46,361 nucleotides of DNA, from NCBI GenBank assembly GCA_017537245.1, contig JAFYLD010000004.1, forward strand, positions 1 to 46,361, in the 5' to 3' direction. Of the stretch, positions 28,874-46,361 are shown piece after piece. The position numbers and the translations under genes are program-made. The stretch's first letter is position 1. The number at the start of each line of letters is the position of its first letter. The notes below the pieces were generated by a model that made no database searches, had not been told where the DNA came from, and worked only from the letters and a program-made list of their open reading frames with translations. Source of the stretch: Clostridia bacterium (GTDB lineage: Bacteria; Bacillota; Clostridia; Oscillospirales; Acutalibacteraceae).

Positions 28874-29512
28874 ATGGAAAAGGTTTCTATTTCAAAGGCA
28901 ACTTTAGGTAGGATACCAAGATATCTAAATTTCCTAAAAGAATTGTCTGTAGATAACGTTCCGTACATATCTGCTACAACTATTTCAAAAGAACTTAATC
29001 TGGGCGAGGTTCAAGTGCGAAAAGACCTTGCCGCCGTAAGTGGCGCCGGAAAACCCAGACTTGGTTATGAGACAGAGTTTCTAATTGAACAGTTAGAGGA
29101 TTGTCTAGGTTACAAACAATTAACCAATGCCGTATTAGTTGGCGCGGGTAAGTTAGGTAGAGCGCTACTTCAGTATGATGGTTTTGAACATTTTGGAGTA
29201 AAAATTAAAGCGGCTTTTGATTCTAATGATAAAGTTATCAATTTTGATTCCAGGACAGAAATTTTACCGATTAGCCAATTTGATACTTTTTGTAAAGAAA
29301 ACAATATATGCCTTGGCATAATTACGGTAGGCGAAGGTTCGGCGCAGGACGTATGTAATCAAATGGTACAAAGCGGTATAAAAGCAATTTGGAATTTTGC
29401 TCCGTGTAAATTACAAGTTCCAAACGGCATTTTACTTCAAAACGAAAATTTGGCATTATCTTTGGCCCATTTGAGAAATCAACTTTCTCGCGGTCAAGGT
29501 TCAATAGTTTAA
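28874..29512 (+). CDS. rex: redox-sensing transcriptional repressor Rex
   Basis: DNA-binding repressor that reads the NADH/NAD+ ratio and controls fermentation and hydrogenase genes in Gram-positive bacteria. The N-terminal winged helix contains ISKATLGRIPRYL and the recognition region LGEVQVRKDLA (residues 43-53). The Rossmann domain starts with NAVLVGAGKLGRALLQY (about 85-101). The C-terminal swap helix ends with LAHLRNQL. Start chosen at 28874 (212 residues) behind AAGGGGGAACG. It heads a co-directional train of redox genes with short gaps, so NADH excess would be expected to release this whole locus, though no clear operator was found. Confidence 0.95.
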   Translation: MEKVSISKATLGRIPRYLNFLKELSVDNVPYISATTISKELNLGEVQVRKDLAAVSGAGKPRLGYETEFLIEQLEDCLGYKQLTNAVLVGAGKLGRALLQYDGFEHFGVKIKAAFDSNDKVINFDSRTEILPISQFDTFCKENNICLGIITVGEGSAQDVCNQMVQSGIKAIWNFAPCKLQVPNGILLQNENLALSLAHLRNQLSRGQGSIV

Positions 29513-29546
29513 AAATATTATTACATATATTTCAGGGGGAAAAACA

Positions 29547-29786
29547 ATGAAGGTTACAGTATGTATTGGTAGTTCATGCCACGTGAAAGGTTCACGTCAG
29601 GTTGTAGAAACATTACAACAACTTATTTCTGACAACAATCTTTCCGAAAAAGTAGAACTTGCAGGTACTTTTTGCATGGGTAAATGTCAACAAGGCGTTT
29701 GTGTAAACGTTGATGATGATTTTTATTCAGTAACTCCAGATAGCGCTGCCTACTTCTTTGAAGAAAACATTAAAGCGAAGGTATAA
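29547..29786 (+). CDS. thioredoxin-like [2Fe-2S] ferredoxin (NuoE/HydC C-domain type), copy 1
   Basis: A 79-residue stand-alone version of the NuoE-type thioredoxin-fold ferredoxin. The four cluster cysteines are Cys6 and Cys11 (VCIGSSCHVKG) and Cys43 and Cys47 (FCMGKC), with an extra Cys52. It likely passes single electrons to the hydrogenase-type proteins that follow. It is a tandem paralogue of the next gene, separated by only 4 bases. There is no NuoF-type NADH-binding subunit beside it, so the donor is not evident. A GGGGG ribosome binding site precedes it. Confidence 0.85.
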   Translation: MKVTVCIGSSCHVKGSRQVVETLQQLISDNNLSEKVELAGTFCMGKCQQGVCVNVDDDFYSVTPDSAAYFFEENIKAKV

Positions 29787-29790
29787 GATT

Positions 29791-30045
29791 ATGATTATAC
29801 AAGTATGTGTTGGTAGTTCTTGTCATCTAAAGGGTTCGCCCGAAATCGTAGAGCTTTTGCAAAACGCAGTTGCAGAATATCATCTAGACAACGACGTAAC
29901 ACTCGCCGGTAGTTTTTGTATTGGTAAGTGCAATCGCGAGGGTGTTACAATTCAAGTTGACGACGATATTCATATCGGTATTACAAAAGAAAACTTTAAA
30001 GAATTTTTTACAGAACAGGTACTTAAAAAGTTAGGAAAGGTGTAA
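29791..30045 (+). CDS. thioredoxin-like [2Fe-2S] ferredoxin, copy 2
   Basis: An 84-residue paralogue of the preceding gene, with identical placing of the four cluster cysteines: Cys6, Cys11 (VCVGSSCHLKG), Cys43 and Cys47 (FCIGKC). Start chosen at 29791, just after the stop of copy 1 and with AAGG upstream; an earlier ATG at 29758 lies inside copy 1. The stop is 6 bases before the sensory hydrogenase gene. Divergence between the copies suggests separate partners, for example one for the sensor and one for the catalytic hydrogenase, but this is inference. Confidence 0.85.
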   Translation: MIIQVCVGSSCHLKGSPEIVELLQNAVAEYHLDNDVTLAGSFCIGKCNREGVTIQVDDDIHIGITKENFKEFFTEQVLKKLGKV

Positions 30046-30051
30046 CGGTAT

Positions 30052-31731
30052 ATGCCCAATTGTTTGACTTTAAAAAAATCCAATTGTAAAAACTGTTATA
30101 AATGTATTCGTCATTGTCCCGTTAAGGCTATTCGCTTTTCGGGAAATCAGGCGCACATTATCGGTAACGAGTGTATTTTGTGTGGTCAGTGTTTTGTTGT
30201 ATGTCCACAAGACGCAAAGCAAATAGTTGACGAAACCGAAAAAGTAAAGGTACTGCTTCAAAGTGGCGATCCTGTTGTTGTTAGCCTTGCTCCGTCGTTT
30301 ATCGCCAACTATGATGGTGTTGGCATTACAGCCATACGTGACGCGCTTAAAAAGTTAGGTTTTTACGACGTAGAAGAAACCGCTATCGGCGCTACAATCG
30401 TTAAAAACGAATATGAAAGAATGCTTCGCGAGGATGAAAGAGACGTTATTATTTCTTCTTGCTGTCATTCTATTAACCTACTAATTCAAAAACATTACCC
30501 ACAAGCGCTTGAATATTTGGCAGACGTTATTTCTCCGATGCAGGCGCACTGTAATGATATTAAAAATAGAATACCTAATGCAAAGACCGTATTTATCGGT
30601 CCGTGTGTTGCAAAAAAAGATGAAGCCGAGCATTACGAGGGCATTGTTGACGCGGTTCTTACTTTTGAAGAATTGACAAGATGGCTAGCAGAAGAGGGAA
30701 TAGTGCTTAACGGCGAAATGGACAACGAGGTTAATTCTCGCGCGCGTTTCTTCCCAACAACCGGCGGCGTTCTCAAGACAATGGCTCAAGACATACCGGG
30801 TTATACTTATCTCGCACTTGATGGCGTTGATAACTGTATCGCAGCAATTAAAGACGTTTTAAACGGCAATATTCATAAGTGCTTTATTGAAATGTCTGCT
30901 TGCGTGGGTAGCTGTGTTGGCGGTCCTGTTATGGAAAAATATCACCGCACCGAAACGGTAAGAGATTATATCACTATCGCCAAGTATGCCGGAGCAAAAG
31001 ATTTTGAAGTTTCACAGCCAAAACCAATGGCGCTTCAAAAGAATTTTGAATATATTGAACAAAGATATCAAACACCATCTGATATTGAAATTCAAAATAT
31101 TCTTCGTCAAATGGGCAAATTTAAACCTTCTCAAGAACTTAACTGTGGCTCTTGCGGTTATAACACTTGCCGTGAAAAAGCAATTGCTATTATTCAAGGC
31201 AAGGCTGAAATTTCAATGTGCTTGCCTTATTTGAAGGACAAGGCCGAGAGTTTCTCTGACACAATTGTAAATAATTCCCCCAATGGTCTTATCGTTTTAA
31301 ATGAGAATCTCGAGGTTCAACAAATTAACAATTCCGCTAGAAGAATGATGAACATTCGCTCTGCTAACGACGTTTTGGGCGATCAAGTAATTCGTATTCT
31401 TGATCCTACCGCTTTTATGAACGTATTAAAAAGCGGTCGCGACGTACGTGACGAGAGAGTTTATCTTGCTGAATATAATCGTTACGTTGAGCAATCAATC
31501 GTATATGATAAGGAATCGCATCTTCTTGTTACAATTATGCGTGACGTTACCGATGAACAAAACGAACGCGAAAAGAAAGAAAACATCAGTCGTCAAACAA
31601 TTGAGGTTGCCGATAAGGTTGTTGATAAACAAATGCGTATCGTTCAAGAAATTGCGTCACTACTTGGTGAAACTGCGGCCGAAACAAAGATCGCCCTTGC
31701 AAAGTTGAAGGAGTCTATCCAAGATGAATGA
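30052..31731 (+). CDS. sensory-type [FeFe]-hydrogenase with PAS domain (HydS-like)
   Basis: Putative H2/redox sensor, 559 residues. Two 4Fe-4S ferredoxin motifs (Cys12-Cys22 and Cys41-Cys51) lead into an H-cluster domain with all cluster cysteines: L1 ISSCCHS (Cys137, Cys138), L2 FIGPCVAKK (Cys185), L3 EMSACVGSCVGG (Cys284, Cys288). L1 differs from the catalytic TSCCPxW, with His for Pro. A further four-cysteine cluster follows (Cys365, 368, 373, 390), then a PAS domain (about 400-515) and a C-terminal helical, probably coiled-coil, segment. This is the domain order of group C/D sensory hydrogenases. Its end overlaps the phosphatase gene by 8 bases, implying a sensor-effector pair. Confidence 0.88.
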   Translation: MPNCLTLKKSNCKNCYKCIRHCPVKAIRFSGNQAHIIGNECILCGQCFVVCPQDAKQIVDETEKVKVLLQSGDPVVVSLAPSFIANYDGVGITAIRDALKKLGFYDVEETAIGATIVKNEYERMLREDERDVIISSCCHSINLLIQKHYPQALEYLADVISPMQAHCNDIKNRIPNAKTVFIGPCVAKKDEAEHYEGIVDAVLTFEELTRWLAEEGIVLNGEMDNEVNSRARFFPTTGGVLKTMAQDIPGYTYLALDGVDNCIAAIKDVLNGNIHKCFIEMSACVGSCVGGPVMEKYHRTETVRDYITIAKYAGAKDFEVSQPKPMALQKNFEYIEQRYQTPSDIEIQNILRQMGKFKPSQELNCGSCGYNTCREKAIAIIQGKAEISMCLPYLKDKAESFSDTIVNNSPNGLIVLNENLEVQQINNSARRMMNIRSANDVLGDQVIRILDPTAFMNVLKSGRDVRDERVYLAEYNRYVEQSIVYDKESHLLVTIMRDVTDEQNEREKKENISRQTIEVADKVVDKQMRIVQEIASLLGETAAETKIALAKLKESIQDE

Positions 31732-32896
31732 TTTATGTGCTGATATAGGATATAAAAGTATAAATCATTACGGCGAACAACTTTGCGGTGATCATATCGA
31801 CGTTGTCGAGCCTAGTGATGATTCTACGGTTATAGTATTGTCAGACGGTCTAGGAAGCGGTGTAAAGGCGAGTATTCTTTCAACTCTTACTTCAAAAATT
31901 ATTTCAACCATGTTGGCTGAAGGGTTGTCGTTAGAAGAGTGTGTAGAAACAATTGCCGCGACTTTGCCTGTTTGTTCGGTACGAGGCGTAGCTTATTCTA
32001 CTTTTACTATTATACATCTAAAAAACAATGAGGTTGCCGAACTAATACAGTATGATAATCCGCACGCTATAATTATTCGTGATGAACAGGTTTGGGATTA
32101 CCCTAAAACTGAAATGAATATTGGTGGCAAAAAGATTTACAAATCTGTTATAAAGTTGCAAGAAAACGATATATTCGTTGCAATGAGTGATGGTTGTCCT
32201 CACGCAGGTATTGGTACCGCGTTTAACTTTGGTTGGAAGCGTGAAGAAATTGCTCAATTTATGGAGTCACTTTCTCATGCAGGTTATACTGCCAAAACGC
32301 TTTCTACAATGCTTGTTGATGAATGCGACAAGTTATATGGTTACAAGCCGGGCGATGACGCTACTGCGTGCGTTGTTCGTATTAGAAAACGCGTACCAAT
32401 GAATATGTTATTTGGTCCTCCATTTAATCGTGATGATGCTGACCGCATGATGTCGCTTTTCTTCTCAAAAGAGGGTAAGCATATTATCTGTGGTGGTACT
32501 ACTTCATCTATTGCGGCCAAATTCTTGCGTAAGCCATTAAAGGCGAGTCTAAATTTTGAAAAAAGCGATATTCCACCAACAGCTACAATTGAGGGTGTTG
32601 ACCTTGTTACAGAGGGCGTTATTACCGTCAATCGTGTTGTTGAATATGCAAACGACTATCTAGGCGAAAACAAACATTATGAACAATGGAGTTTTAACCG
32701 TGATGGCGCATCGCTTATTTGCCGATTGCTTTTTGAAGAAGCAACCGATATTAATTTTTACGTAGGCAGAGCGGTAAATCCCGCTCACCAAAACCCAGAT
32801 CTACCAATTAATTTTAATATTAAAATGAATTTGGTGGACGAGCTATCTAAATGCCTAAGAAAAATGGGCAAGAAGATAAAAGTAAGTTACTTCTAA
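31724..32896 (+). CDS. SpoIIE-family PP2C serine phosphatase
   Basis: Probable output enzyme of the upstream hydrogenase sensor. The PP2C/SpoIIE fold is shown by CGDHID (metal Asp23), VLSDGLGSG (Asp41), AMSDGCPHAG near residue 155 and PGDDATACVV near residue 212. Cytoplasmic, with no membrane segment, so it is not the sporulation SpoIIE itself. About 160 C-terminal residues after the phosphatase domain form a second, unassigned domain beginning around FGPPFNRDDADRM and containing CGGTTSSIAAKFL. Its target is not evident: no STAS-domain, anti-sigma or kinase gene is nearby. Translation is coupled to the sensor gene by an 8-base overlap. Confidence 0.88.
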   Translation: MNDLCADIGYKSINHYGEQLCGDHIDVVEPSDDSTVIVLSDGLGSGVKASILSTLTSKIISTMLAEGLSLEECVETIAATLPVCSVRGVAYSTFTIIHLKNNEVAELIQYDNPHAIIIRDEQVWDYPKTEMNIGGKKIYKSVIKLQENDIFVAMSDGCPHAGIGTAFNFGWKREEIAQFMESLSHAGYTAKTLSTMLVDECDKLYGYKPGDDATACVVRIRKRVPMNMLFGPPFNRDDADRMMSLFFSKEGKHIICGGTTSSIAAKFLRKPLKASLNFEKSDIPPTATIEGVDLVTEGVITVNRVVEYANDYLGENKHYEQWSFNRDGASLICRLLFEEATDINFYVGRAVNPAHQNPDLPINFNIKMNLVDELSKCLRKMGKKIKVSYF

Positions 32897-32907: not shown

Positions 32908-34335
32908 ATGGGAGTAAGAAAGTTTGATACAAAGGTACAGCACTTAAAATACAAAGTGCTTCGCGAAGTAGCACGTCATGCTTGGAACGACACCTTGCTT
33001 GATAATCTTCTCAGTATTCCAGAGACGATTGCACCGGGTAAAACTCCGACAATGAGATGTTGTGTTTATAAAGAACGCGCTATTTTATCTGAACGTGTAA
33101 AAATGGTTATGGGTGGCGACAAAGACAACCCTAACGTTATTCAGGTAATTGATATCGCTTGCGATGAATGCCCATCTGCCGGTTATGAAGTTACTGATTC
33201 ATGTCGTGGTTGTTTGGCTCACCGTTGCGAAGACGTATGTAAACGTGGCGCAATAACTTTTGATCAAAATCACGTAGCGCATATCGATAAATCAAAGTGT
33301 GTTGAATGTGGTCAGTGTGCAAAGGTTTGTCCATTTACGGCTATCATCAATCGCAAACGTCCTTGTCAAAATGCGTGCAAGGTAAAGGCTATTTCTATTA
33401 ATGAAGATAACGCTGCTGCAATTGATAACAGCAAATGTATTCAATGTGGCGCTTGCGTATATCAGTGTCCTTTTGGCGCGATAACCGATAAATCATATAT
33501 TCTCGACGTAATTGACATGATTAAAAAGAGTGAGAACAATCAAAAGTATAAGGTTTATGCTATTGTTGCTCCATCAATTTCCAGCCAGTTTGTTTATGCA
33601 AAATTAGGTCAGGTAATTAAGGGACTTAAAGAACTTGGTTTCTTTACGGTTATTGAAGCGGCTCTTGGCGCTGATATGGTAGCACAAGCAGAATCACAAG
33701 AACTTGCTGAAAAAGGATTTTTAACAAGTTCATGTTGTCCTGCATTTGTTCAGTACATTAAATCTGCATTCCCGGATTTATTACCACTTGTGTCACATAA
33801 TCTTTCTCCTATGGCAGCACTTGCACAGTATATTAAGAAAACTGATAAGGATGCAAAGGTTGTATTTATAGGACCATGTACCGCCAAAAAGGCAGAAGCG
33901 CAGCTCGAAAGTGTAAAACCACACGTAGATGCGGTTATGACTTTTGAAGAATTGCAAGCGCTCTATGATAGCAAAGACGTTGATATTACAACACTAGGTG
34001 AAGACGTGCTTGATAATGCGTCATACTTTGGTAGAATCTTTGCTCGTTTAGGCGGTCTTTCTGATGCAGTAGCTCAAGGTCTTAAAGAACAAAATATTGA
34101 ATTTGATTTAAAGGCTATCGCTTGCGATGGTATTGAAGAATGTCGTATGGCGCTTCTTAAAAAGAGCAAAAACGTTCTTGACGCTAACTTTATCGAGGGT
34201 ATGGCGTGTGTCGGCGGTTGTATTGGCGGCGCGGGTTGCTTAACTCATGGCGAAAAGAACAAGGCCGAAGTTGACAAGTACGGCAGAGAAGCATTTGAAA
34301 AAACAATTAGCGACGCAGTTGCTATTTTAAAATAA
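32908..34335 (+). CDS. group B monomeric [FeFe]-hydrogenase (CpIII-like)
   Basis: Catalytic hydrogenase interconverting H2 with protons and ferredoxin electrons, 475 residues. A cysteine-rich N-terminal region (Cys51, 52, 85, 88, 99, 102) precedes two 4Fe-4S motifs (Cys131-141 and Cys177-187). The H-cluster ligands are intact: L1 TSSCCPAF (Cys276, Cys277), L2 IGPCTAKK (Cys324), L3 EGMACVGGCIGG (Cys434, Cys438). The TSSCCPAF form and lack of a CpI-like N-terminal [2Fe-2S] domain mark group B, exemplified by Clostridium pasteurianum hydrogenase III. The start at 32908 has AAGGAG eight bases before it; an in-frame ATG at 32851 lies inside the phosphatase gene. The maturases HydE, HydF and HydG are not in the window. 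Confidence 0.9.
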   Translation: MGVRKFDTKVQHLKYKVLREVARHAWNDTLLDNLLSIPETIAPGKTPTMRCCVYKERAILSERVKMVMGGDKDNPNVIQVIDIACDECPSAGYEVTDSCRGCLAHRCEDVCKRGAITFDQNHVAHIDKSKCVECGQCAKVCPFTAIINRKRPCQNACKVKAISINEDNAAAIDNSKCIQCGACVYQCPFGAITDKSYILDVIDMIKKSENNQKYKVYAIVAPSISSQFVYAKLGQVIKGLKELGFFTVIEAALGADMVAQAESQELAEKGFLTSSCCPAFVQYIKSAFPDLLPLVSHNLSPMAALAQYIKKTDKDAKVVFIGPCTAKKAEAQLESVKPHVDAVMTFEELQALYDSKDVDITTLGEDVLDNASYFGRIFARLGGLSDAVAQGLKEQNIEFDLKAIACDGIEECRMALLKKSKNVLDANFIEGMACVGGCIGGAGCLTHGEKNKAEVDKYGREAFEKTISDAVAILK

Positions 34336-34356: not shown

Positions 34357-35298
34357 ATGAATAAAATTACCGTAATTGGTTCTGGTAACGTTGGTTCTAC
34401 CATTGCCTATACACTTACAATCATGGGAATCGCATCTGAGATTGTTATGATTGACGTTAACGAAGAAAAATCACTTGGTGAAGCGCTTGATATTAGACAG
34501 GGCGTATCATTCTGTAATCCTGTTTCGGTTTATGCAGGTTCTTATGCAGACGCTGTAAATTCTGATATCGTTGTTATTACTTCTGGTATGGCAAGAAAGC
34601 CAGGTCAGTCAAGACTAGATCTTGCTCAGGCTAACGTTGATATCATCAAGAGCATTGCAGATAAAATTGTTCCTGTAGCTCCAAAAGCTACATACGTTAT
34701 CGTTAGTAATCCTGTTGACGTTTTAACCTACGTTTTCTTAAAGCATACAGGTTTACCACAAGAACGCGTAATCGGTTCTGGTACAGTTCTTGATACTGCA
34801 AGACTTCGTTCAAGAATTTCAGAATATTATTCTGTAAACCAAAAGAACGTTCACGCTTACGTTTTGGGTGAGCACGGCGACAGTTCATTTGTGCCATGGT
34901 CACTTGCTAATATCTCTAACGTACCTGTTGAAACGTTTAGCGACGCAATTCAAACAAAGGAAATCTATCCTGAGTTTATTTTAAAGGACGTAGAAGACTA
35001 TATGCGCAAATCGGGTGCTAGAATTATTCAGCGCAAGGGCGCTACATTCTATGCAGTATCTATTTCTGTTTGCCATATATGTAAATCAATCCTTAGTGGT
35101 ATTGATACAACTCTTACCGTATCAACAATGCTTAATGGTGAATATGGTATCGATGACGTATGTTTAAGCCTTCTTAACGTTGTAGGCGATAAGGGTGCGC
35201 ACGCTAAGATTATGCTTCCTCTTAACGAAGAAGAAACAGCAGCGCTCCACAACAGCGCAAAGGTACTTAAAGATTTGATTAACAGTCTTGATATATAA
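34357..35298 (+). CDS. mdh: LDH-fold dehydrogenase, predicted malate dehydrogenase
   Basis: NAD-dependent 2-hydroxyacid dehydrogenase of the LDH/MDH superfamily, 313 residues. The Rossmann motif GSGNVGSTIAY is at residues 8-18, and Asp33 at the end of strand 2 favours NAD over NADP. The catalytic GEHGDSSFVPWS lies near residue 175. Overall it looks LDH-like, but the substrate-specificity loop reads GMARKPGQSRLDL, placing Arg80 where lactate dehydrogenases have Gln (Gln102 in Bacillus numbering). Arg there is the classic malate/oxaloacetate determinant. The next gene is fumarase, which supports oxaloacetate reduction to malate. Start chosen at 34357 behind TGAGGAG. Lactate activity cannot be excluded from sequence alone. 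Confidence 0.8.
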   Translation: MNKITVIGSGNVGSTIAYTLTIMGIASEIVMIDVNEEKSLGEALDIRQGVSFCNPVSVYAGSYADAVNSDIVVITSGMARKPGQSRLDLAQANVDIIKSIADKIVPVAPKATYVIVSNPVDVLTYVFLKHTGLPQERVIGSGTVLDTARLRSRISEYYSVNQKNVHAYVLGEHGDSSFVPWSLANISNVPVETFSDAIQTKEIYPEFILKDVEDYMRKSGARIIQRKGATFYAVSISVCHICKSILSGIDTTLTVSTMLNGEYGIDDVCLSLLNVVGDKGAHAKIMLPLNEEETAALHNSAKVLKDLINSLDI

Positions 35299-35314: not shown

Positions 35315-36691
35315 ATGGAATATCGTATTGAACATGACTCAATGGGCGAAATGAAAGTTCCTGCTGACCGTCTTTGGGCAGCGCAAACTCAAAGAAGCCA
35401 CGAAAACTTTGAAATTGGCGTAGGTATTGAAACAATGCCACGTGAAATAATTCACGCATTTGGCGTACTTAAAAAGGCGGCTGCTATCACAAATCATGCC
35501 CTCCGTCCTGAAAAGATGACTGCTGAAAAGCTAGACGCTATCAAGGCTGCTTGTGATGAAATCATGGCAGGCGAGCTTAACGGTCATTTTCCACTTGTTG
35601 TATGGCAGACAGGCTCTGGTACACAGTCTAACATGAACTCTAACGAGGTTATTGCTAACCGTGGTAATCAAATTGCCGGCAAAGCTCTTTTACATCCAAA
35701 CGATGACTCAAATATGAGCCAGTCTTCTAACGATACTTTCCCAACTGCTATGCATATTGCAGCAGTATTAAGTCTTGAAGATAAGCTTATTCCTGCAGTT
35801 GAGGAATTAATTGCTACATTTAACAGACTTGAAAAAGAAAACGAAGGTATTGTTAAGAGTGGTAGAACACATCTTCAAGATGCAACACCTATCACATTTA
35901 GTCAAGAAATTAGCGGTTGGCGTTCAAGCCTTGAAAAAGACGTTGAACTTATCAAGCGTTCTATTGATCCACTTCGTGAATTAGCGCTTGGTGGTACTGC
36001 GGTAGGTACCGGTCTTAACGCTCCAAAGGGCTTTGATACAGGCGTTGCTGAAGAAGTTTCAAAAATTACTGGTAAAAAGTTTGTTACCGCTGCTAACAAG
36101 TTCCATGCTCTTACTTCAAAAGATGAACTTGTATTTGCTCACGGTGCAGTAAAAGCACTTGCTTGCGATATGATGAAGATAGCTAACGACGTTCGTTGGT
36201 TGGCATCTGGTCCACGTGATGGTCTTGGTGAAATCTTTATTCCTGAAAATGAGCCGGGTTCTTCTATCATGCCAGGTAAGGTTAACCCAACACAGTGCGA
36301 GGCTGTAACAATGGTTGCAGTTCAAGTAATGGGTAACGACGTGGCTATTGGTATGGCTGCTTCTCAAGGTAACTTTGAACTTAACGTATTTATGCCTGTT
36401 TGCATTTATAATTTCTTGCAGTCAGCTCGTCTTTTGGCTGAAGCAATTGTTTCATTCAACAAGAACTGCGCTGTTGGTATTAAAGCAAACAAAGAAAAGA
36501 TGCACCACAACTTGCATAACTCTTTGATGCTCGTTACCGCTCTTAATCCATATATCGGTTATGAAAATGCTGCAAAGACTGCTAAAAAGGCATTTAAAGA
36601 TAACATTTCACTAAAAGAAGCTTGCGTTGAACTCGGCTTCTTAACTGCTGAAAGATTTGATGAGGTTTTCCATCCGGAAGAGATGGTATAA
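35315..36691 (+). CDS. fumC: class II fumarate hydratase
   Basis: Oxygen-stable, iron-free fumarase that interconverts malate and fumarate, 458 residues. MEYRIEHDSMGEMKVPAD at the N terminus, WQTGSGTQSNMNSNEVI near residue 100, SGRTHLQDATP (catalytic His region), and the superfamily signature GSSIMPGKVNPTQCEA near residue 315 identify FumC. Start chosen at 35315 behind AGAAAGGA. Lying between malate dehydrogenase and fumarate reductase genes, it should run towards fumarate. The clostridial preference for class I iron-sulfur fumarases makes this choice worth noting. Confidence 0.95.
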   Translation: MEYRIEHDSMGEMKVPADRLWAAQTQRSHENFEIGVGIETMPREIIHAFGVLKKAAAITNHALRPEKMTAEKLDAIKAACDEIMAGELNGHFPLVVWQTGSGTQSNMNSNEVIANRGNQIAGKALLHPNDDSNMSQSSNDTFPTAMHIAAVLSLEDKLIPAVEELIATFNRLEKENEGIVKSGRTHLQDATPITFSQEISGWRSSLEKDVELIKRSIDPLRELALGGTAVGTGLNAPKGFDTGVAEEVSKITGKKFVTAANKFHALTSKDELVFAHGAVKALACDMMKIANDVRWLASGPRDGLGEIFIPENEPGSSIMPGKVNPTQCEAVTMVAVQVMGNDVAIGMAASQGNFELNVFMPVCIYNFLQSARLLAEAIVSFNKNCAVGIKANKEKMHHNLHNSLMLVTALNPYIGYENAAKTAKKAFKDNISLKEACVELGFLTAERFDEVFHPEEMV

Positions 36692-37895: not shown

Positions 37896-39890
37896 ATGCA
37901 AAGAGTTGGTGTTTTTGTATGTTGGTGTGGTAGTAACATTGCTGGTACAGTTGACGTAGAAGCAGTGTCAGAAGCCTTGAAAAGCGAACCTGGTGTAGTC
38001 TTTTCCACCAATTATCAATATATGTGTTCACAAGCAGGTCAAGATATGATTAAAGACGCTGTAAAAGAACACAATCTTACTGGTATCGTAGTATGTTCTT
38101 GTTCACCAAGAATGCACGAAGCAACCTTCCGCAAAACCGCGGCGGCTGCTGGTCTTAATCCATATATGGTTGAGATTGCAAATATTCGTGAACAGTGTTC
38201 TTGGGTACATAAAGACGTACTCACAGGTACCGAAAAAGCTATTATTTTAGGTAAAGCAGCGGTTGCTAAGGTTAATCTTAATACTCCACTTATTCCTGGT
38301 GAATCACCAGTTACAAAGCGTGCTTTGGTTATTGGTGGCGGCATTGCCGGTATTCAAACCGCTCTTGATATTGCTGACGCAGGTTTTGAGGTAGATATTG
38401 TCGAAAAGAAACCTACAATCGGTGGTAAAATGGCACAGCTCGATAAAACTTTCCCAACACTTGACTGTGCCGCTTGTATCTTGACACCTAAAATGGTTGA
38501 CGTAGCACAAAACGAGAAGATTAGAATTTTCTCATATAGTGAAGTTACCGAGGTACAAGGTTTTGTTGGTAACTTTGATGTAACTATCAAGAAAAACGCC
38601 CGATATGTTAAAGAAGAAATTTGTACCGGTTGTGGCGCTTGTGTTGAAAAGTGTCCAATGAAGAAGATTCCTAACGAGTTTAATCTTGGTATGGATAATC
38701 GTAGTGCTATTTATATTCCTTTTGCACAAGCAGTGCCAAAGGTTGCTACCATTGATCCAAACGCTTGTAATATGCTTAAAAACGGCAAATGTGGCGTTTG
38801 TTCAAAGGTTTGCGCAGCAGGCGCTATTGACTATACACAAAAAGATGAATATATCAATGAAAAGTATGGCGCTATCGTTGTAGCAACAGGCTTTAATCCG
38901 ATTAGCATGGATAAGTTTGACGAGTTTGCTTACAATCAGTCAAAAGACGTTATCACTTCACTTGAATTTGAGCGTCTTACTAATGCGGCAGGTCCTTCTG
39001 CCGGTAAGTTGGTTCGTCCATCTGACGGTAAACATCCACATACTATCGTTTTTGTACAGTGTGTAGGCTCTCGTTGTGAGTCATGCGCAGAAAAGGGTAA
39101 AGAATATTGCTCAAAGATTTGCTGTATGTATACTGCAAAACACGCAATGCTTACTCGTGATAAATATCCGGATACTGAGGTTTACGTATTCTATATTGAC
39201 GTACGTACACCAGGTAAAAACTTCGACGAATTTTATCGTCGTGCTGTTGAAGAATACGGTGTTAAATACGTTAAGGGCATGGTAGGTAAGGTAACACCAG
39301 AAGGCGATAAGTTAAAGGTTCAAGCATCTGACCTAATTGCTAACAAGCAGTTACACATTGATGCCGATTTGGTTGTATTAGCTGCTGCTATCGAGCCTGA
39401 TAAATCGGCTCGTCCGCTTGCTACAATGCTTACAGCTAGTATGGATACAAACGATTTCTTTACCGAGGCTCATCCAAAGCTTCGTCCTGTAGAGAGCCCA
39501 ACTGCCGGTGTGTTCCTTTCCGGCGCTTGTCAAGGACCAAAAGATATTCCAGAAACCGTATCACAAGCTGGTGCAGCGGCTTCTAAAGTTATTGGTCTTC
39601 TTGCAAAAGACAAACTTACAGGTAACCCTTGCGTTGCAAATTCTAACGAACTTATGTGTAATGGTTGTTCTTCTTGCGCAAACGTTTGTCCTTATGGTGC
39701 AATCAGTTACGAAGACAAAGAATTCCGTATGCCAGATAGAACAACAAAGGTAAGAAGAGTAGCTGTTGTTAATCCTGCGGTTTGTCAGGGTTGTGGCGCG
39801 TGTACCGTTGCTTGTCCTTCGGGTGCTATGGACCTTAAGGGATTTGCAAATTCACAAATTATGGCGGAGGTTGACGCAATATGCAAGTAA
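37896..39890 (+). CDS. hdrA: heterodisulfide reductase-like subunit HdrA (FAD, electron-bifurcation site)
   Basis: Central flavoprotein of 664 residues, the site of flavin-based electron bifurcation in characterised HdrABC complexes. The N-terminal cluster domain starts RVGVFVCWCGSNI and includes VVCSCSPRMHEATFR. The FAD Rossmann motif is VIGGGIAGIQTALDIA (about 145-160), followed by TFPTLDCAACILTPKM. An inserted ferredoxin pair (ICTGCGACVEKCP near 242, then CGVCSKVCAAGAI) and a C-terminal pair (MCNGCSSCANVCP and CQGCGACTVACP) supply further clusters. No in-frame UGA/selenocysteine is used. It overlaps the FlxD gene by 10 bases. Confidence 0.93.
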   Translation: MQRVGVFVCWCGSNIAGTVDVEAVSEALKSEPGVVFSTNYQYMCSQAGQDMIKDAVKEHNLTGIVVCSCSPRMHEATFRKTAAAAGLNPYMVEIANIREQCSWVHKDVLTGTEKAIILGKAAVAKVNLNTPLIPGESPVTKRALVIGGGIAGIQTALDIADAGFEVDIVEKKPTIGGKMAQLDKTFPTLDCAACILTPKMVDVAQNEKIRIFSYSEVTEVQGFVGNFDVTIKKNARYVKEEICTGCGACVEKCPMKKIPNEFNLGMDNRSAIYIPFAQAVPKVATIDPNACNMLKNGKCGVCSKVCAAGAIDYTQKDEYINEKYGAIVVATGFNPISMDKFDEFAYNQSKDVITSLEFERLTNAAGPSAGKLVRPSDGKHPHTIVFVQCVGSRCESCAEKGKEYCSKICCMYTAKHAMLTRDKYPDTEVYVFYIDVRTPGKNFDEFYRRAVEEYGVKYVKGMVGKVTPEGDKLKVQASDLIANKQLHIDADLVVLAAAIEPDKSARPLATMLTASMDTNDFFTEAHPKLRPVESPTAGVFLSGACQGPKDIPETVSQAGAAASKVIGLLAKDKLTGNPCVANSNELMCNGCSSCANVCPYGAISYEDKEFRMPDRTTKVRRVAVVNPAVCQGCGACTVACPSGAMDLKGFANSQIMAEVDAICK

Positions 39891-40315
39891 ATGAATATAA
39901 GCCTTTAATTGTTGCATTTTGCTGCAACTGGTGTTCTTATGCGGGTGCTGACCTTGCCGGTAACAATCGCTTGGCATATCCTGCTGACGTTAAAATTATT
40001 CGTGTGCCATGTTCATGCCGTGTAAATCCTATGTTTATTTTGCGTGCATTTCAGCGTGGTGCTGACGGTGTAATTATTTGTGGTTGTCACCCGGGTGACT
40101 GTCACTATACTTCGGGTAACTATTATACCCGTCGTCGTATGGCGGCTCTTTTCTCAATGCTAGATTACTTAGGTATTGAAAAAGAACGTACCCGCGTTGA
40201 GTGGGTATCTGCTGCTGAAGGCGCTAAGTTTGCTGCAACTATGAATGATTTTGCAAAAACAGTAGCTTCACTCGGCGAAAACAAAAGATTGGAGGATTTA
40301 AGATGCAAAAAATAA
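39881..40315 (+). CDS. flxD: MvhD/FlxD-type [2Fe-2S] electron-transfer protein
   Basis: Connects HdrA to its electron-donating module. The 144-residue protein has the conserved cysteine pattern of the MvhD/FlpD family: Cys14, Cys15, Cys18 (FCCNWCSY), Cys44, Cys46 (PCSCRV), then Cys67, Cys69, Cys74 (ICGCHPGDCHY). The family normally docks a hydrogenase, formate dehydrogenase or Flx module on HdrA; here the three genes that follow suggest the Flx (NADH) type. The start lies inside hdrA and its end overlaps the next gene by 13 bases. Confidence 0.9.
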   Translation: MQVNEYKPLIVAFCCNWCSYAGADLAGNNRLAYPADVKIIRVPCSCRVNPMFILRAFQRGADGVIICGCHPGDCHYTSGNYYTRRRMAALFSMLDYLGIEKERTRVEWVSAAEGAKFAATMNDFAKTVASLGENKRLEDLRCKK

Positions 40316-41301
40316 CTCGTGATCAATTAGTTAGCAAAGCATCAGAACTCCTTTCTAACGGTACTGTTTGTTGTGTTCTAGGTTGGGGAATGGGTGAGTT
40401 CGATTACGACGTAACTCCTACCGTTTTCAATACAGTTGAAGAACTTAACAATGGTTTTGTTTTCAATGATTTCTGTGGCGCTAACTTCTCTAAATATTTA
40501 GTATCAAAGGCTGCTAAATGCGATGGAAAAATCCTTGTTTTATTAAAGCCTTGTGATACTTATAGTTTTAATCAACTTTTAACCGAGCATCGCTTTGATA
40601 GGGAAAAGGTTTACGTTGTAGGTATACCATGCGAGGGTATGGCTGACGTATCAAAAGTTAAGGCAATTTGTGGTGAAGGTATATTAGCTATCAGCTCAAA
40701 TGGCGATAACATAAACGTAACAACACTTTATGATGAAAATCCAATTGTTATAAATGCTGCTGACGTTTTAGCAGAGCGTTGTGTTAATTGCAAGAGCAAA
40801 AAGCACGTTGCTTATGATGAACTTTTGGGTGATGAGGGCGAAGTTATCGAGTCAAATCGTTTTGATGAGGTTGCTCGTCTTGAGGCAATGAGCGCTGATG
40901 AAAGATTTGCTTTTTGGCAAAACGAACTTTCACGTTGTATTCGTTGCAACGCTTGTCGTGACGCTTGTCCTGCATGTACTTGTGAAAAATGTGTTTTTGA
41001 CAATCCAAATTCTGGTGTTGAAAACAAATCACCTGCAAATAGTTTTGAAGAAAAACTATTCCATATTATTCGTGCATATCACGTAGCAGGTCGTTGTACT
41101 GACTGCGGTGAATGTTCACGTGTTTGCCCACAAAATATTCCTCTTCACCTGCTTAACCGTAAATTCATCAAAGATATAAATGAATTTTACGGCGACTATC
41201 AAGCAGGTGAAGAGGTTGGTATGCGTGCTCCTTTGGTTAACTATACAACCGAAGATTTAGAGCCGGGCGAGGTTTTTGATAGGGGGGCTGACAATGCGTA
41301 A
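40303..41301 (+). CDS. flxC: FrhB/FdhB-like iron-sulfur protein (FlxC-like)
   Basis: 332 residues. The N-terminal half resembles the FrhB/FdhB beta-subunit family (GWGMGEFDYDVTPTVF, LLKPCDTYSFNQLL, GIPCEGM). A C-terminal 4Fe-4S pair is formed by CIRCNACRDACPACTCEKC and CTDCGECSRVCP. Its place between the MvhD-type protein and the AsrA-like protein matches the Flx gene clusters that accompany HdrABC in anaerobes; the letter C is a tentative assignment. Probable role: electron relay, possibly flavin-containing. An AGATTGGAGG site precedes the start. Confidence 0.72.
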   Translation: MQKITRDQLVSKASELLSNGTVCCVLGWGMGEFDYDVTPTVFNTVEELNNGFVFNDFCGANFSKYLVSKAAKCDGKILVLLKPCDTYSFNQLLTEHRFDREKVYVVGIPCEGMADVSKVKAICGEGILAISSNGDNINVTTLYDENPIVINAADVLAERCVNCKSKKHVAYDELLGDEGEVIESNRFDEVARLEAMSADERFAFWQNELSRCIRCNACRDACPACTCEKCVFDNPNSGVENKSPANSFEEKLFHIIRAYHVAGRCTDCGECSRVCPQNIPLHLLNRKFIKDINEFYGDYQAGEEVGMRAPLVNYTTEDLEPGEVFDRGADNA

Positions 41302-42322
41302 GTGTTCTCTTGATAAAATTAATCTTATTTTTGCTGAGATTGCAAAAAACGCTGAGCTCTATCTTCCTGTCGATCAAAACGACGGAAGCGCCGCTTACAA
41401 GAAGTGGGAGGAAGGTACCGCTTGGAGCAACAAACTCAACACTGTTAAAAGCCCTAAAGACTTCTTTTTTCCTCAAACTGAAGATTTAATGCAGTTTAAA
41501 ACTCAAGGCAAAAACATCGAAATAGTTGATACTAGATCAGCTCTCCAAGATTTTGTTATATTTGGTGTTAGAGCGTGTGACGTAAAGAGCTTTGATATAC
41601 TTGATCGTGTATTTTTAAGCGAACCTGTAGATAGTTTCTACGCGTCACGCAGAAAACACGGCGTTATCATTTCTCTTGCGTGTACAAGACCTTCAGAAAC
41701 TTGTTTCTGCAAGACTTTTGATATTGACCCTGCAAATCCAACAGGCGATATTTCTGCTTGGAAAACCGAAAGCGAAATTTTCTTTGCGGCTAATACCGAA
41801 AAGGGCGCAGCGCTACTTGATAAACTTTCTTCACTTACCGAAGAATGCGACGATGCTGCTGTATTAGAGCAAAAGGAAAAGATAAACGCTATTATGGATA
41901 AGCTACCACTTAAGAATCTTACAACAGATGCTTTTGGCGGCGGTAAAACAAACGAACTCTTTAACGCTCCTGAATGGGACGAGTTATCTAGCGCGTGTTT
42001 AGGTTGCGGCACCTGTACTTTTGTGTGTCCTACTTGTCAATGCTATGATATTAAAGACTTTAACACCGGTAACGGCGTTGTTCGTTTTAGATGTTGGGAT
42101 TCTTGTATGTATTCCGACTTTACAAAGATGGCGCATGGTAACAACCGTCTAACTCAAAAAGAACGTTTCCGTCAGAGATTTATGCACAAGCTTGTATATT
42201 ATCCTGAAAACAATGATGGTTTATTTAGCTGTGTAGGTTGTGGTCGCTGTCTTGCAAAATGCCCAATTTCTATGAATATTGTTAAGGTAATGAAAAAGAT
42301 TGGAGGAAAAAAAGATGAATAA
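41294..42322 (+). CDS. flxB: 4Fe-4S dicluster protein, HydB/AsrA-like (FlxB-like)
   Basis: 342 residues. The N-terminal domain is related to the sulfhydrogenase beta / anaerobic sulfite reductase A family (VIFGVRACDVKSFDILDRVF, LACTRPSETCFC). Two ferredoxin motifs follow: CLGCGTCTFVCPTCQC near residue 235 and CVGCGRCLAKCP near residue 315. It would move electrons between the NADH-binding FlxA and the rest of the complex. Start chosen at 41294 because AGGGGGG lies 6 bases upstream; it overlaps the previous gene by 8 bases and the next by 8. The letter B is a tentative assignment. Confidence 0.75.
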   Translation: MRKCSLDKINLIFAEIAKNAELYLPVDQNDGSAAYKKWEEGTAWSNKLNTVKSPKDFFFPQTEDLMQFKTQGKNIEIVDTRSALQDFVIFGVRACDVKSFDILDRVFLSEPVDSFYASRRKHGVIISLACTRPSETCFCKTFDIDPANPTGDISAWKTESEIFFAANTEKGAALLDKLSSLTEECDDAAVLEQKEKINAIMDKLPLKNLTTDAFGGGKTNELFNAPEWDELSSACLGCGTCTFVCPTCQCYDIKDFNTGNGVVRFRCWDSCMYSDFTKMAHGNNRLTQKERFRQRFMHKLVYYPENNDGLFSCVGCGRCLAKCPISMNIVKVMKKIGGKKDE

Positions 42323-43148
42323 TATTAACGAAACTTTAATTCCAAAAATCGGTGTTATTACCGATGTTCGTATCGATACACCAGACATAAAAACGTTTAG
42401 AGTTGTAACTCCAGATGGTAAAAAAGCGTTTGACCACAGACCAGGTCAGTGCGCAATGCTTTCAGTACCTGGTGTTGGCGAAGCAATGTTTTCTATTACC
42501 TCTTCACCAACAAATGAAGAGTATATGGAGTTTTCTATTAAAAAGTGTGGCTGTGTAACCGATTGGCTACACCAAGCTGAACCGGGTCAACAAATCACTA
42601 TTCGTGGACCTTATGGTGAACCATTCCCGGTTGACGACGTTTTTGCTGGCAAGGATCTTTTGTTTATTGCGGGCGGTGTTGGTCTTGCACCTCTTCGTTC
42701 TGTAATCAACTACTGCCGTCATTATCGTGATCGTTATGGTAAAATTGATATCGTTTACGGTTCTCGTAGTAAAGACGATCTTCTTGACTATAAAGAAATT
42801 ATCGAAGAGTGGTCAACCGATACCGGCGTAAACGTTCACTTGACTATCGATAATCCTCAAGAAGGTTGGGATGGCCACGTAGGTTTTGTTCCAAATTACG
42901 TAAAAGAACTTGGATTTGATACTAACAAGGTAGCCGTTTTGTGCGGACCACCTATTATGATTAAATTTACACTTGATGGACTTTGTGAAATCGGTTTTGA
43001 TAAAACTAACGTTTACACAACACTCGAACTTCGCATGAAATGCGGTGTAGGTAAGTGCGGTAGATGTAACGTTGGCGCAAAGTACGTTTGCAAAGATGGT
43101 CCGGTCTTTCGTTGTGACGAATTGGAAGAGCTTCCAAGCGAGTATTAA
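42315..43148 (+). CDS. flxA: FAD/NAD-binding oxidoreductase (FlxA-like, HydG/AsrB type)
   Basis: Probable NADH-oxidising subunit, 277 residues, ferredoxin-reductase fold. FAD is held by HRPGQCAMLSV and MFSITSSP (about residues 43-65). The pyridine-nucleotide site is IAGGVGLAPLRS near residue 113 with a CGPPIMIKFT motif near residue 211. The C-terminal [2Fe-2S] ligands are in MKCGVGKCGRCNVG plus a later YVCKDGP cysteine. It has the same plan as PyrK and sulfhydrogenase gamma. Start chosen at 42315 behind TTGGAGG. With the preceding three genes it makes a complete FlxABCD-like set beside hdrABC, the arrangement described for NADH-linked Hdr complexes in Desulfovibrio. Confidence 0.85.
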   Translation: MNNINETLIPKIGVITDVRIDTPDIKTFRVVTPDGKKAFDHRPGQCAMLSVPGVGEAMFSITSSPTNEEYMEFSIKKCGCVTDWLHQAEPGQQITIRGPYGEPFPVDDVFAGKDLLFIAGGVGLAPLRSVINYCRHYRDRYGKIDIVYGSRSKDDLLDYKEIIEEWSTDTGVNVHLTIDNPQEGWDGHVGFVPNYVKELGFDTNKVAVLCGPPIMIKFTLDGLCEIGFDKTNVYTTLELRMKCGVGKCGRCNVGAKYVCKDGPVFRCDELEELPSEY

Positions 43149-43160
43149 AGGAGAAAAAAC

Positions 43161-43835
43161 ATGGAAAAAATGGTTAATATTTACCTTTATGGTAAAAAAT
43201 ACGAGGTTCCTTCAAGCCTCACCATAATGAACGCTATGGAATATGCTGGTTATCAGCTTGTTCGTGGCGTTGGTTGTCGTTGTGGTTTCTGTGGCGCATG
43301 TGCAACAATTTACCGCATTAAAGGTCAACAAGAGATCAAGACTTGTCTTGCTTGTCAAACAAAGGTAGAGGACAATATGTATATTGCAACTCTTCCTTTC
43401 TTCCCACTTGTTAAAAAGCCTTATGAAATCGAAAACGTTAAACCTACCGAGCAGATTATGATGCAATTGTATCCTGAAATTTATGCTTGTATCGGTTGTA
43501 ACGCTTGTACCAAGGCTTGTACCCAGGAACTTAACGTTATGCAGTACATCGCATTCGCACAACGCGGCGATTTTGAAAAATGCGCAGAAGAGTCATTTGA
43601 CTGCGTAATGTGCGGTGTTTGTTCATCACGTTGTCCTGCTGGTATTACTCATCCTCAGGTTGGCTTGCTTGCTCGCCGTCTAAATGGTAAGTATCTAGCT
43701 CCTGAAACACAACACCTTTTAGAGCGTGTTGCAGAGGTTGAAAATGGTGGTTGTGAAGCCGATCTTCAAGAAATTATGAAGAAGACTGCTGAAGAACTTA
43801 AAGAAATGTATAATAATCGTGATTTTGAGAAATAA
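43161..43835 (+). CDS. tfrB: fumarate reductase iron-sulfur subunit, TfrB-like without CCG domain
   Basis: 224 residues. A plant-type [2Fe-2S] domain (Cys39, 44, 47, 62 in GCRCGFCGAC...TCLAC) is followed by two 4Fe-4S motifs (Cys110, 113, 116, 120 and Cys148, 151, 154, 158) in the HdrC-like arrangement. It ends in a charged helical tail. Methanogen TfrB continues into an HdrB-like CCG domain that binds the thiol cofactors; here that part is missing, while a free HdrB is encoded 6 kb upstream. It pairs with the flavoprotein gene 14 bases downstream. No membrane-anchor gene (SdhC/FrdC/FrdD) is present, so the reductase should be cytoplasmic. Confidence 0.8.
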   Translation: MEKMVNIYLYGKKYEVPSSLTIMNAMEYAGYQLVRGVGCRCGFCGACATIYRIKGQQEIKTCLACQTKVEDNMYIATLPFFPLVKKPYEIENVKPTEQIMMQLYPEIYACIGCNACTKACTQELNVMQYIAFAQRGDFEKCAEESFDCVMCGVCSSRCPAGITHPQVGLLARRLNGKYLAPETQHLLERVAEVENGGCEADLQEIMKKTAEELKEMYNNRDFEK

Positions 43836-43849
43836 GGAGGTGCGATAGA

Positions 43850-45499: not shown

Positions 45500-45504
45500 T
45501 TTAG

Positions 45505-45535
45505 TTTGAGCGGGCAAGGGAACTGTCCGCTCAAA
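45505..45535 (+). promoter_or_regulatory. intercistronic stem-loop without T tract
   Basis: TTTGAGCGGGCA (45505-45516) pairs with TGTCCGCTCAAA (45524-45535) with one G-U wobble and a 7-base loop. No T run follows, so it is unlikely to terminate fully; it may stabilise or process the mRNA and lower expression of the transporter gene. Confidence 0.6.
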
Positions 45536-45554
45536 GAACGACTGGTGAAATAAA

Positions 45555-46361
45555 ATGGAATTATTTAAAATTGGAAGTTTTAGTCTTTCAATTAGTGGCG
45601 TTGCATTTTTGATTTTTTCAATTCTCGCTATCGCTGCTATTGGTTATTTGTTAGGCAAAGTAACTATTAAAGGCGTTAACTTAGGTACTGCTGGCGTTTT
45701 TCTTATTGCGTTATTGTTTGGTTGTCTTTTCTATGGACCTCTTAACGATCAGCTTGCAGTCGAGGGTGTTAAATACACAACCAACGCCTTAAAGGTTGTT
45801 GAAAATTTAGGACTAATGTTATTCGTAACATCCGTTGGTTTTATAGCAGGTCCAAAATTCTTTGGCGACTTAAAAAGAAATTTTAAAACTTATATACTTC
45901 TAGGACTTATTATTATTTGCTCTGGCGCGCTTATTTGCGCAGGCTGTATTGTTATTGCCAAAATGACAATGGACGTTCCAGCTGAGGAATTAAACGCTGT
46001 AATGACCGGTCTTTTCTCTGGCGCACTTACTTCAACTCCTGCTTTCTCTGCAGCGAAAGAGGCGATCGGCAAGGATTATGAAAGCTTTGTAGCGGTTGGT
46101 AATGGTATCGCATATATCTTTGGTGTTATTGGTGTTGTACTTTTTGTTCAACTTATTCCAAAATTCACAAAAGCAGATATGGCAGTAGAACGCGCAAAAT
46201 TAAGCGGTGGCGATGGTAACGCTGAAGATCCAGTAGAAAGAAATGGCAGTAAAATGCTAATCAATATCGATTCGTTTGGTATCGCTCCTTTTGCTATTGC
46301 TGCGATTGTAGGTTTGCTCATTGGTAGCATTAAGTATGGTTCTTTCTCACTTACCACTACC
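45555..46361 (+). CDS. AspT/SucE-family transporter (aspartate-alanine exchanger family), 3' end outside window
   Basis: Open frame of 269 codons to the window edge. Multiple hydrophobic segments start at ISGVAFLIFSILAIAAIGYL. The family hallmark is GLFSGALTSTPAFSAAKEAIG near residue 155, preceded by LGLMLFVTSVGFIAGPKFF. The AAEx family includes AspT (aspartate:alanine exchange) and the SucE succinate exporter of Corynebacterium. Placed directly after a fumarate reductase, a dicarboxylate exporter releasing succinate is the natural reading, but the substrate is inferred from context. ACTGGTGAAA gives a weak ribosome binding site. A soluble TrkA-C-type domain usual in the second half lies beyond the window. 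Confidence 0.82.
   Translation, partial: MELFKIGSFSLSISGVAFLIFSILAIAAIGYLLGKVTIKGVNLGTAGVFLIALLFGCLFYGPLNDQLAVEGVKYTTNALKVVENLGLMLFVTSVGFIAGPKFFGDLKRNFKTYILLGLIIICSGALICAGCIVIAKMTMDVPAEELNAVMTGLFSGALTSTPAFSAAKEAIGKDYESFVAVGNGIAYIFGVIGVVLFVQLIPKFTKADMAVERAKLSGGDGNAEDPVERNGSKMLINIDSFGIAPFAIAAIVGLLIGSIKYGSFSLTTT

Follow-up and report, generated by a model that had tools for sequence, protein, structure and literature searches.

A run of genes in a Clostridia bacterium of the family Acutalibacteraceae (assembly GCA_017537245.1) bears on the question of how succinate is formed in fermenting gut Clostridia that have no membrane fumarate reductase, and of whether its formation yields energy. The window, that is the whole stretch of DNA analyzed, is the entire contig JAFYLD010000004.1 (G000:C52; 46,361 bases) of a 1.59 Mb genome in 56 contigs. 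From position 28874 to 46361, all genes of the run lie on the + strand and every gap is of 55 bases or less, or is an overlap. The order is rex, two small 2Fe-2S proteins, a sensory-type [FeFe] hydrogenase, a phosphatase, a group B hydrogenase, mdh, fumC, hdrBCA, flxDCBA, tfrBA and a transporter gene (Table 1). Family matches and the short gaps bear out this co-directional run as given in a preliminary description, which had proposed an NADH:fumarate reductase operon based on electron bifurcation and joined to H2 sensing and H2 metabolism. According to our analysis, the core of the run (mdh-fumC-hdrBCA-flxDCBA-tfrBA-transporter) is probably a succinate-fermentation operon in which Flx-Hdr would bifurcate NADH electrons to ferredoxin and fumarate, a reading to which we give a probability of about 0.6.

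In the proposed mechanism, malate dehydrogenase (MDH) and fumarase would convert oxaloacetate to fumarate, which TfrA would reduce to succinate in the cytoplasm. NADH electrons would enter at FlxA and travel via FlxB and FlxD to the flavin of HdrA, the presumed bifurcation site, where they would be split, one going to ferredoxin and the other reaching TfrA by way of HdrC, HdrB and the HdrC-like domain of TfrB. The net reaction would be 2 NADH + fumarate + oxidised ferredoxin -> 2 NAD + succinate + reduced ferredoxin (two electrons), and a reduction of ferredoxin driven by NADH and fumarate is chemically feasible. The reduced ferredoxin would then feed Rnf, forming an ion gradient, or a hydrogenase, and the transporter is a possible succinate exporter. 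If this is true, each succinate yields reduced ferredoxin, which would raise ATP estimates and tie succinate to H2 levels.

Our comparisons support the view that the fumarate reductase and Flx-Hdr genes are one inherited unit, widespread in gut Clostridia. We took the best 80 of 580 confirmed relatives in a named collection, a sample of close relatives mostly seen with 10-kb flanks and coming for the most part from Clostridia of the gut of ruminants, chickens and other animals. Among those with enough contig, hdrB, hdrC and hdrA were each found upstream of tfrA in 58/58 loci, flxD in 62/62, flxC in 63/63, flxB in 65/65, flxA in 71/71 and tfrB in 72/72; mdh was found in 42/55 and fumC in 42/57. 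The conserved hdrBCA-flxDCBA-tfrBA synteny, which the preliminary description had proposed as a check, is thus present, and the proteins also co-occur: in 391 genomes of the class searched at E 1e-100, TfrA and HdrA were both detected in 53, TfrA only in one and HdrA only in four. The contig of the genome with TfrA only (G218) stops inside flxC. Those with HdrA only are G180, whose contig stops inside flxB, and G170, G184 and G212, whose HdrA is 42-49% identical (the loci of G170 and G184 were inspected, G212 was left out). In the 53 genomes with both, the genes lie on the same contig and strand, 1.3-4.2 kb apart, in 47 and are split between contigs in 6. Synteny and co-occurrence thus exceed chance; the Fisher tests behind this take no account of kinship.

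The same linkage was seen on other scales. A set of 149 genomes (own included) contains TfrA at 62% identity or more in 22 and HdrA at 72% or more in 18; 17 of the 21 relatives' loci hold the full hdrBCA-flxDCBA-tfrBA set, one (G021) is truncated within flxC by a contig end, and in three tfrBA stands alone. In the genus of a Blautia glucerasea record (L118), both proteins occur in the same 15/64 genomes, on one contig in 13. One lineage is reordered yet linked (G411: class I fumarase, tfrB, tfrA, hdrB, hdrC, hdrA, flxDCBA). Five of the best 80 of 580 loci stand under the names of Treponema or other spirochaetes (L067, L088, L108, L122, L124) and show tfrBA with flx/hdr where the contig allows, which may hint at transfer between phyla or reflect mis-binned contigs. 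What the present work adds is the finding that these genes are passed on together in many gut bacteria. As the operon is also present in the named strains Blautia glucerasea MSK.21.93 and Dorea sp. 5-2, the published proposal of bifurcation can be assayed directly.

We then considered the identity of the terminal module. Residues H323, T339, E340, R364, H436 and R470 of TfrA, which we take to be the catalytic residues of the FrdA/SdhA superfamily, are present in 104/104 aligned rows, and alignments to solved chains agree. The position of the covalent-FAD histidine of FrdA/SdhA is occupied by Asn132, again in 104/104 rows. E. coli FrdA variants without this histidine reportedly keep fumarate reduction and lose succinate oxidation. 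The structure model of TfrA has a pLDDT of 82, low at the FAD site. No further SdhA/FrdA-type protein was found in the genome of the window or in the four genomes whose TfrA is closest to it. The Dorea genome and two spirochaete genomes gave one SdhA-family match each. L-aspartate oxidase was rejected for TfrA on the score of the NadB model TIGR00551 (272.6 bits vs 452.75), which is under the 340 bits of the methanogen TfrA model.

The label TfrBA used in the preliminary description is not supported. TfrA shares the family and the catalytic residues of the methanogen thiol:fumarate reductase TfrAB, but both subunits score far under the methanogen cut-offs (718 bits for TfrA), and TfrB lacks the CCG half, covering positions 18-92 of the 488-position model with no PF02754 match. 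Parts spanned by the methanogen TfrB model are split in the window among TfrB, HdrC and HdrB. The features of a membrane quinol:fumarate reductase or complex II are absent as well: there is no covalent-FAD histidine, TfrB does not reach the cut-off of the FrdB/SdhB model dhsB (29.1 bits vs 88), and the operon holds no membrane anchor subunit, all genes from hdrB to tfrA encoding iron-sulfur or flavoprotein families and the next one the AspT-type transporter.

Features of an FlxABCD-HdrABC complex are all present: the FlxA domains, FlxD, the FAD site and cluster cysteines of HdrA, the two CCG sites of HdrB, and HdrC. In 79/79 rows, HdrA keeps 27 of its 33 cysteines and Lys415, presumably the flavin-site lysine; flxD adjoins and overlaps hdrA. 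The window Hdr proteins score below the cut-offs curated for the archaeal Hdr models. The subunits and their domains match those of the Desulfovibrio vulgaris FlxABCD-HdrABC, which reportedly has a role in ethanol metabolism (Ramos 2015) and is not known to include fumarate reductase subunits. The 8-methylmenaquinol:fumarate reductase SdhABE is similar in that a CCG protein (SdhE) is joined to an FrdAB-type enzyme. SdhE is in fact the best NCBIfam model for the window HdrB, but the score is far under cut-off (164.7 bits vs 500), and, unlike in SdhABE, no membrane or quinone role is expected in the window. Separately, the locus L139 (genome G184) was seen to have a different Flx set and several HdrA-like stretches, the best HdrA match crossing one in-frame TAG.

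Concerning the fate of the reduced ferredoxin, the preliminary description had pointed to the group B hydrogenase. The genome carries an rnfCDGEAB cluster on contig C20, in which all six subunits except RnfA (224.8 vs 229.3) exceed the curated cut-off, and RnfC is present in 8/8 same-genus genomes (own included), in none of which a NiFe hydrogenase was found. Rnf would conserve energy, whereas the group B enzyme would merely dispose of electrons. According to the available parts of PMC12578642, group B hydrogenases reoxidise ferredoxin and drive much of human gut H2 formation, group A3 being said to dominate in ruminants. A HydABC-type hydrogenase set is also present, on contig C12; as an operon neighbour this type was rejected, being found near the operon only in L130 and L079, 5.7-7.4 kb beyond the tfrA start. 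Among the HydABC-type genes of contig C12, we observed an [FeFe] hydrogenase-like protein of 418 aa (G000:C12:17643-18329; L142:3419-4675) that lies under both the group A and the group B cut-offs.

Hdr and Tfr do not occur together throughout. The three genomes with tfrBA alone (G055, G004 and G011; loci L050, L051 and L052; 97-99% complete) have no detectable HdrA, and their TfrA and TfrB are 62-69% and 57-67% identical to ours. In a midpoint-rooted tree of 98 rows, the three form one clade (support 99) nested in a group of eight rows (support 98), all the others being Hdr- or Flx-linked. Their branches are long (0.22-0.63, vs 0.045 and 0.077 for the closest rows with linkage, a comparison with no genome-wide control). 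Of 104 TfrB columns conserved at 95% or more in 96 linked rows, 13 are changed in at least two of the three Hdr-less rows. As controls, 200 random linked triples gave a mean of 0.14 and a maximum of 6 changed columns, and twelve chosen linked triples (spirochaetes included, not all clades) gave 0-5. The signal is weaker in TfrA, where 9/259 columns of this kind differ and random triples gave a mean of 0.22 and a maximum of 11. Six of the 13 TfrB columns fall in a single helix, residues 126-135, making it a candidate docking surface for Hdr. The most divergent linked row, L133, was excluded from the linked set and keeps three of the six changed helix residues.

Both the operon and the idea of bifurcation are already in print. 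In the available text of PMC7282089, genes in the same order form the "succinate operon" of the succinate producer Pseudoclostridium thermosuccinogenes (CDQ83_RS03365-RS03315), and a 2019 preprint proposing bifurcation is cited. By that paper's description, the operon holds a fumarase, Flx-Hdr, two fumarate reductase genes and a possible transporter, with ferredoxin-linked fumarate reduction proposed; mdh and the upstream cassette of Rex, H2 sensor and group B hydrogenase are additions of the window. The same text reports that the operon is up about 4-fold under CO2 limitation, though not significantly for every subunit, and cites an older study in which 85% H2 almost abolished succinate formation, taken to fit a ferredoxin-linked enzyme. 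A similar proposal stands in the accessible part of PMC6315080, where tubeworm symbionts and Thioflavicoccus mobilis are described as having korABCD/tfrAB mixed with flxABCD-hdrABC genes and a TfrAB/Flx-Hdr complex is suggested. Tfr-like genes are intermixed with Flx-Hdr there as in the window, but in Gammaproteobacteria and a reverse TCA cycle with 2-oxoglutarate synthase rather than in fermenting Clostridia. The core is therefore a new, well-supported member of a published and, as far as we found, biochemically unproven kind, and its novelty is low.

Other sources touch the subject less directly. As far as PMC12773636 is available, it describes the succinate producer Blautia luti with highly transcribed frdAB, Rnf and a group B hydrogenase; methyl viologen served as artificial donor in its fumarate reductase assay, and an NADH-dependent enzyme appears in one scheme. 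The terms "Hdr" and "heterodisulfide" were not found in its text. B. luti belongs, like the bearers of our operon, to the gut Clostridia, and another Blautia (B. glucerasea, L118) carries a window-type operon. The accessible passages of PMC6776011, PMC5861303, PMC12887300 and PMC11187502 hold nothing, or a mere mention, on such a fumarate reductase. The phrase "electron-bifurcating fumarate reductase" was not found in a literature search that reached few subscription papers.

Several observations weigh against bifurcation by a joint complex, and some of them favor other explanations. We found no biochemically characterised Flx-Hdr-fumarate reductase in the literature, and our own genome is a metagenome-assembled one that is 79.6% complete. 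In P. thermosuccinogenes, Na2S, which lowers the redox potential, acted in the direction opposite to H2, and the authors find this confusing (PMC7282089, available part). ATP-type phosphoenolpyruvate carboxykinase (PEPCK) was rejected as a source of oxaloacetate in this genome, not being found in 8/8 same-genus genomes (own included) but found in 2/2 others, in a search that did not extend to GTP-type PEPCK or pyruvate carboxylase. Besides TfrA, the genome of Blautia glucerasea encodes two full-length proteins of the SdhA family, so that TfrA is one of several candidates there. The ferredoxin domains of CODH and RnfC fit the TfrB structure model about as well as HdrC does. As for the helix, its enrichment (hypergeometric 0.00018) was computed on a stretch chosen after the changes were seen, and RnfC has part of the motif, which may thus be partly structural.

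The remaining objections concern the joint working of the two modules. All ten conserved cysteines of HdrB (both CCG sets) are intact in 78/78 rows, as expected of a disulfide reductase. HdrA, FlxD and FlxA are 81-96% identical to those of six order relatives (HdrA 85-92%) whose TfrA is only 71-73% identical, therefore tfrBA or hdr-flx were probably exchanged between lineages. From the three Hdr-less genomes it follows that TfrBA can use another donor and that the modules are separable. All this would suit two enzymes in one pathway, with Flx-Hdr bifurcating and reducing a thiol/disulfide carrier at HdrB and TfrBA drawing on this carrier, ferredoxin or another donor; Flx-Hdr is indeed said to deliver electrons to ferredoxin and thiols (PMC7282089, available part). 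We consider this arrangement unlikely, although it is the strongest competitor: the 224-aa TfrB has no CCG half for thiol oxidation, the linkage is near-absolute and is kept in the rearranged lineage, and the TfrB helix is altered where Hdr was lost. A single complex passing electrons from NADH to fumarate with bifurcation lost or uncoupled, and thus no ferredoxin reduction, seems somewhat less probable still. By the redox potentials, NADH to fumarate is strongly exergonic alone, and we found no published experiment showing bifurcation in such a complex, but the invariance of the HdrA cysteines and of Lys415 and the presence of Rnf as a ferredoxin user argue for retained coupling. Operation in reverse, in which succinate would be oxidized and its electrons confurcated with those of ferredoxin to NAD, appears very improbable, even if flavin-based systems are reversible in principle. 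The asparagine that replaces the covalent-FAD histidine throughout, together with the reported behavior of E. coli FrdA, speaks against it; the transporter, Rex and hydrogenase genes suit a fermentative sink, the reverse direction is thermodynamically costly, and PEPCK adjoins the operon in L110, the only locus of the set in which it does.

On balance we favor bifurcation of NADH electrons to ferredoxin and fumarate. The preliminary description is partly supported: the genes are inherited as one unit, TfrA has the FrdA-type residues, no second SdhA/FrdA was found in the genome, and the chemistry is feasible; its novelty, the TfrBA label, the H2 part and the fate of ferredoxin had to be revised. 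A wider version, whose odds we put a little short of even, would make the soluble fumarate reductase the high-potential arm of a bifurcating NADH dehydrogenase, with TfrB docked on HdrBC via helix 126-135 and Hdr replacing the membrane anchor. In this lineage the operon would be under NADH (Rex) and H2 (sensory hydrogenase and phosphatase) control, as high H2 would block ferredoxin disposal and so stop succinate formation, and it would be a main route to succinate and, via Rnf, to extra ATP in gut Clostridia without a membrane fumarate reductase, including some Blautia.

The genes upstream of the core would form a cassette for control by H2 and NADH (Rex, sensory-type hydrogenase, phosphatase) together with a group B hydrogenase draining ferredoxin. 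When H2 is high, ferredoxin would not be drained and bifurcation would stall, so that the operon would gain from sensing both H2 and NADH. The preliminary description had treated H2 sensing and the hydrogenase as part of the system; the cassette is found in few lineages and is a lineage-specific add-on, although one that recurs on either side of the operon. It is complete upstream of the operon in the window, G063 and G027. G016, whose TfrA is 93% identical to that of the window, carries no more of it than rex and the group B hydrogenase, and in G001 both cassette-type hydrogenases sit on a different contig from the operon. We counted the genes near either operon end in 104 loci (near-copies dropped); the figures are lower bounds, given the mostly 10-kb flanks. 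At least 15/104 loci have rex, at least 18 a small 2Fe-2S protein and at least 5 a PAS-type hydrogenase, all on the same strand; the phosphatase is near the operon in at least 4 and the group B hydrogenase in at least 7, six of them on the same strand. At L110, genes for Rex, an ORF product, a small 2Fe-2S protein, a PAS-type hydrogenase, the phosphatase, the group B enzyme and PEP carboxykinase come after the operon and transporter and share their strand. The ORF (L110:13617-14303), between rex and the 2Fe-2S protein and in the same direction, encodes 228 aa.

Within the cassette, the HydS-like hydrogenase is below the group B cut-off (196.8 vs 450 bits), and its PAS domain, under the cut-off in the window, scores 29.5 in the L110 relative. 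A break in the run after rex, suggested by an apparent gap of about 280 bases, was rejected: a second small 2Fe-2S ORF (no. 1 in Table 1), absent from the gene list of the preliminary description, fills it. Rex control through a nearby operator was rejected too, the pattern TTGTTAANNNNTTAACAA with up to 3 mismatches giving 9 matches in the window vs 11.3 expected, none immediately before rex. The site listed in Table 1 is the sole well-placed promoter-like site upstream of rex, such matches being at chance level over the whole region (46 vs 45.2 expected). Terminator-like sites in the region showed no clear excess either (21 vs a shuffled mean of 15.1, sd 4.3).

At the start of the core, two L-lactate dehydrogenase models score over their curated cut-off on the MDH protein, a correction to the preliminary description, and the malate dehydrogenase model NF004863 falls just short (282.1 vs 283). 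As the model scores do not decide, we assign the gene to malate dehydrogenase on the residue of the substrate loop, which is Arg80 and not Gln (Arg in 60/60 aligned rows) and which we take to confer malate dehydrogenase specificity; lactate dehydrogenase was rejected on this residue. Two unrelated fumarases substitute for each other beside the operon. Across 79 loci with hdrB (two near-copies included), fumC is present in 58, an unrelated two-subunit class I fumarase in 16, neither in 5 and both in none. L036 was counted with class I although one subunit only was seen, and a fumarase or mdh beyond the 10-kb flank would escape the counts. At the other end of the run, the transporter gene is incomplete because the window is the whole contig.

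Table 1. Coordinates of the features of the gene run, with the matches on which they rest
Feature	Position	Strand	Basis
Promoter-like site	28726..28754	+	TTGATT-17-TATAAT, TG before second hexamer; consensus match only
Rex, NADH/NAD-sensing repressor	28874..29512	+	NF003994 248 bits, cut-off 130
Small thioredoxin-like [2Fe-2S] protein no. 1, 79 aa	29547..29786	+	PF01257 36.2 bits, cut-off 24.8
Small thioredoxin-like [2Fe-2S] protein no. 2, 84 aa	29791..30045	+	PF01257 37.7 bits
HydS-like, probably sensory [FeFe] hydrogenase	30052..31731	+	PF02906 163.6 bits; FeS domain over cut-off; PAS 21.1 vs cut-off 22.6
SpoIIE-type phosphatase, adjoining the sensory-type hydrogenase	31724..32896	+	PF07228 55.8 bits, cut-off 25
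Group B monomeric [FeFe] hydrogenase, ferredoxin-dependent type	32908..34335	+	TIGR04105 566.8 bits, cut-off 450
Malate dehydrogenase, LDH/MDH family	34357..35298	+	Pfam Ldh_1_N/C; Arg at substrate loop
Class II fumarase FumC	35315..36691	+	TIGR00979 722.8 bits, cut-off 664.75
HdrB-like, two CCG motifs	36707..37498	+	PF02754 over cut-off; all five solved-structure matches are HdrB chains
HdrC-like, two [4Fe-4S] motifs	37491..37880	+	TIGR03290 62.2 bits, under cut-off 160; eight Cys in 81/81 rows
HdrA-like flavoprotein	37896..39890	+	5odc_A E 2.2e-203; HdrA2 model 777 bits, under cut-off 1100
FlxD (MvhD-like)	39881..40315	+	PF02662 185.4 bits, cut-off 22.3; matches C-terminal part of fused HdrA2 model
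FlxC, [4Fe-4S] dicluster protein	40303..41301	+	Fer4_8 36.5 bits, cut-off 27
FlxB, like beta subunit of NAD(P)H-dependent sulfhydrogenase	41294..42322	+	PF17179 104.7 bits; sulfhydrogenase beta models 175 bits, under cut-off
FlxA, NAD(P)H-binding flavoprotein with [2Fe-2S]	42315..43148	+	NAD_binding_1, FAD_binding_6, DHODB_Fe-S_bind over cut-off
TfrB-like iron-sulfur subunit, 224 aa	43161..43835	+	N-terminal [2Fe-2S] and C-terminal HdrC-like domain
TfrB helix 126-135	43536..43565	+	Conserved in Hdr-linked proteins, changed in three Hdr-less genomes
TfrA/FrdA-like flavoprotein, 549 aa	43850..45499	+	PF00890 223.7 bits, cut-off 20.4; N-terminal extension of about 92 aa
AspT/YidE-type transporter	45555..46361	+	PF06826 101.9 bits, cut-off 27; 3' part missing at contig end

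The rest of the window lies upstream of the run. Positions 680-22688 hold, all on the + strand, pyrimidine genes (dihydroorotase, CarB, PyrD, aspartate carbamoyltransferase) and purine genes (PurF-like, PurM, PurH-type, PurL), then formate-tetrahydrofolate ligase. An ORF of 531 aa, for which NCBIfam gave no match at E 1e-30, follows at 23421-25016.

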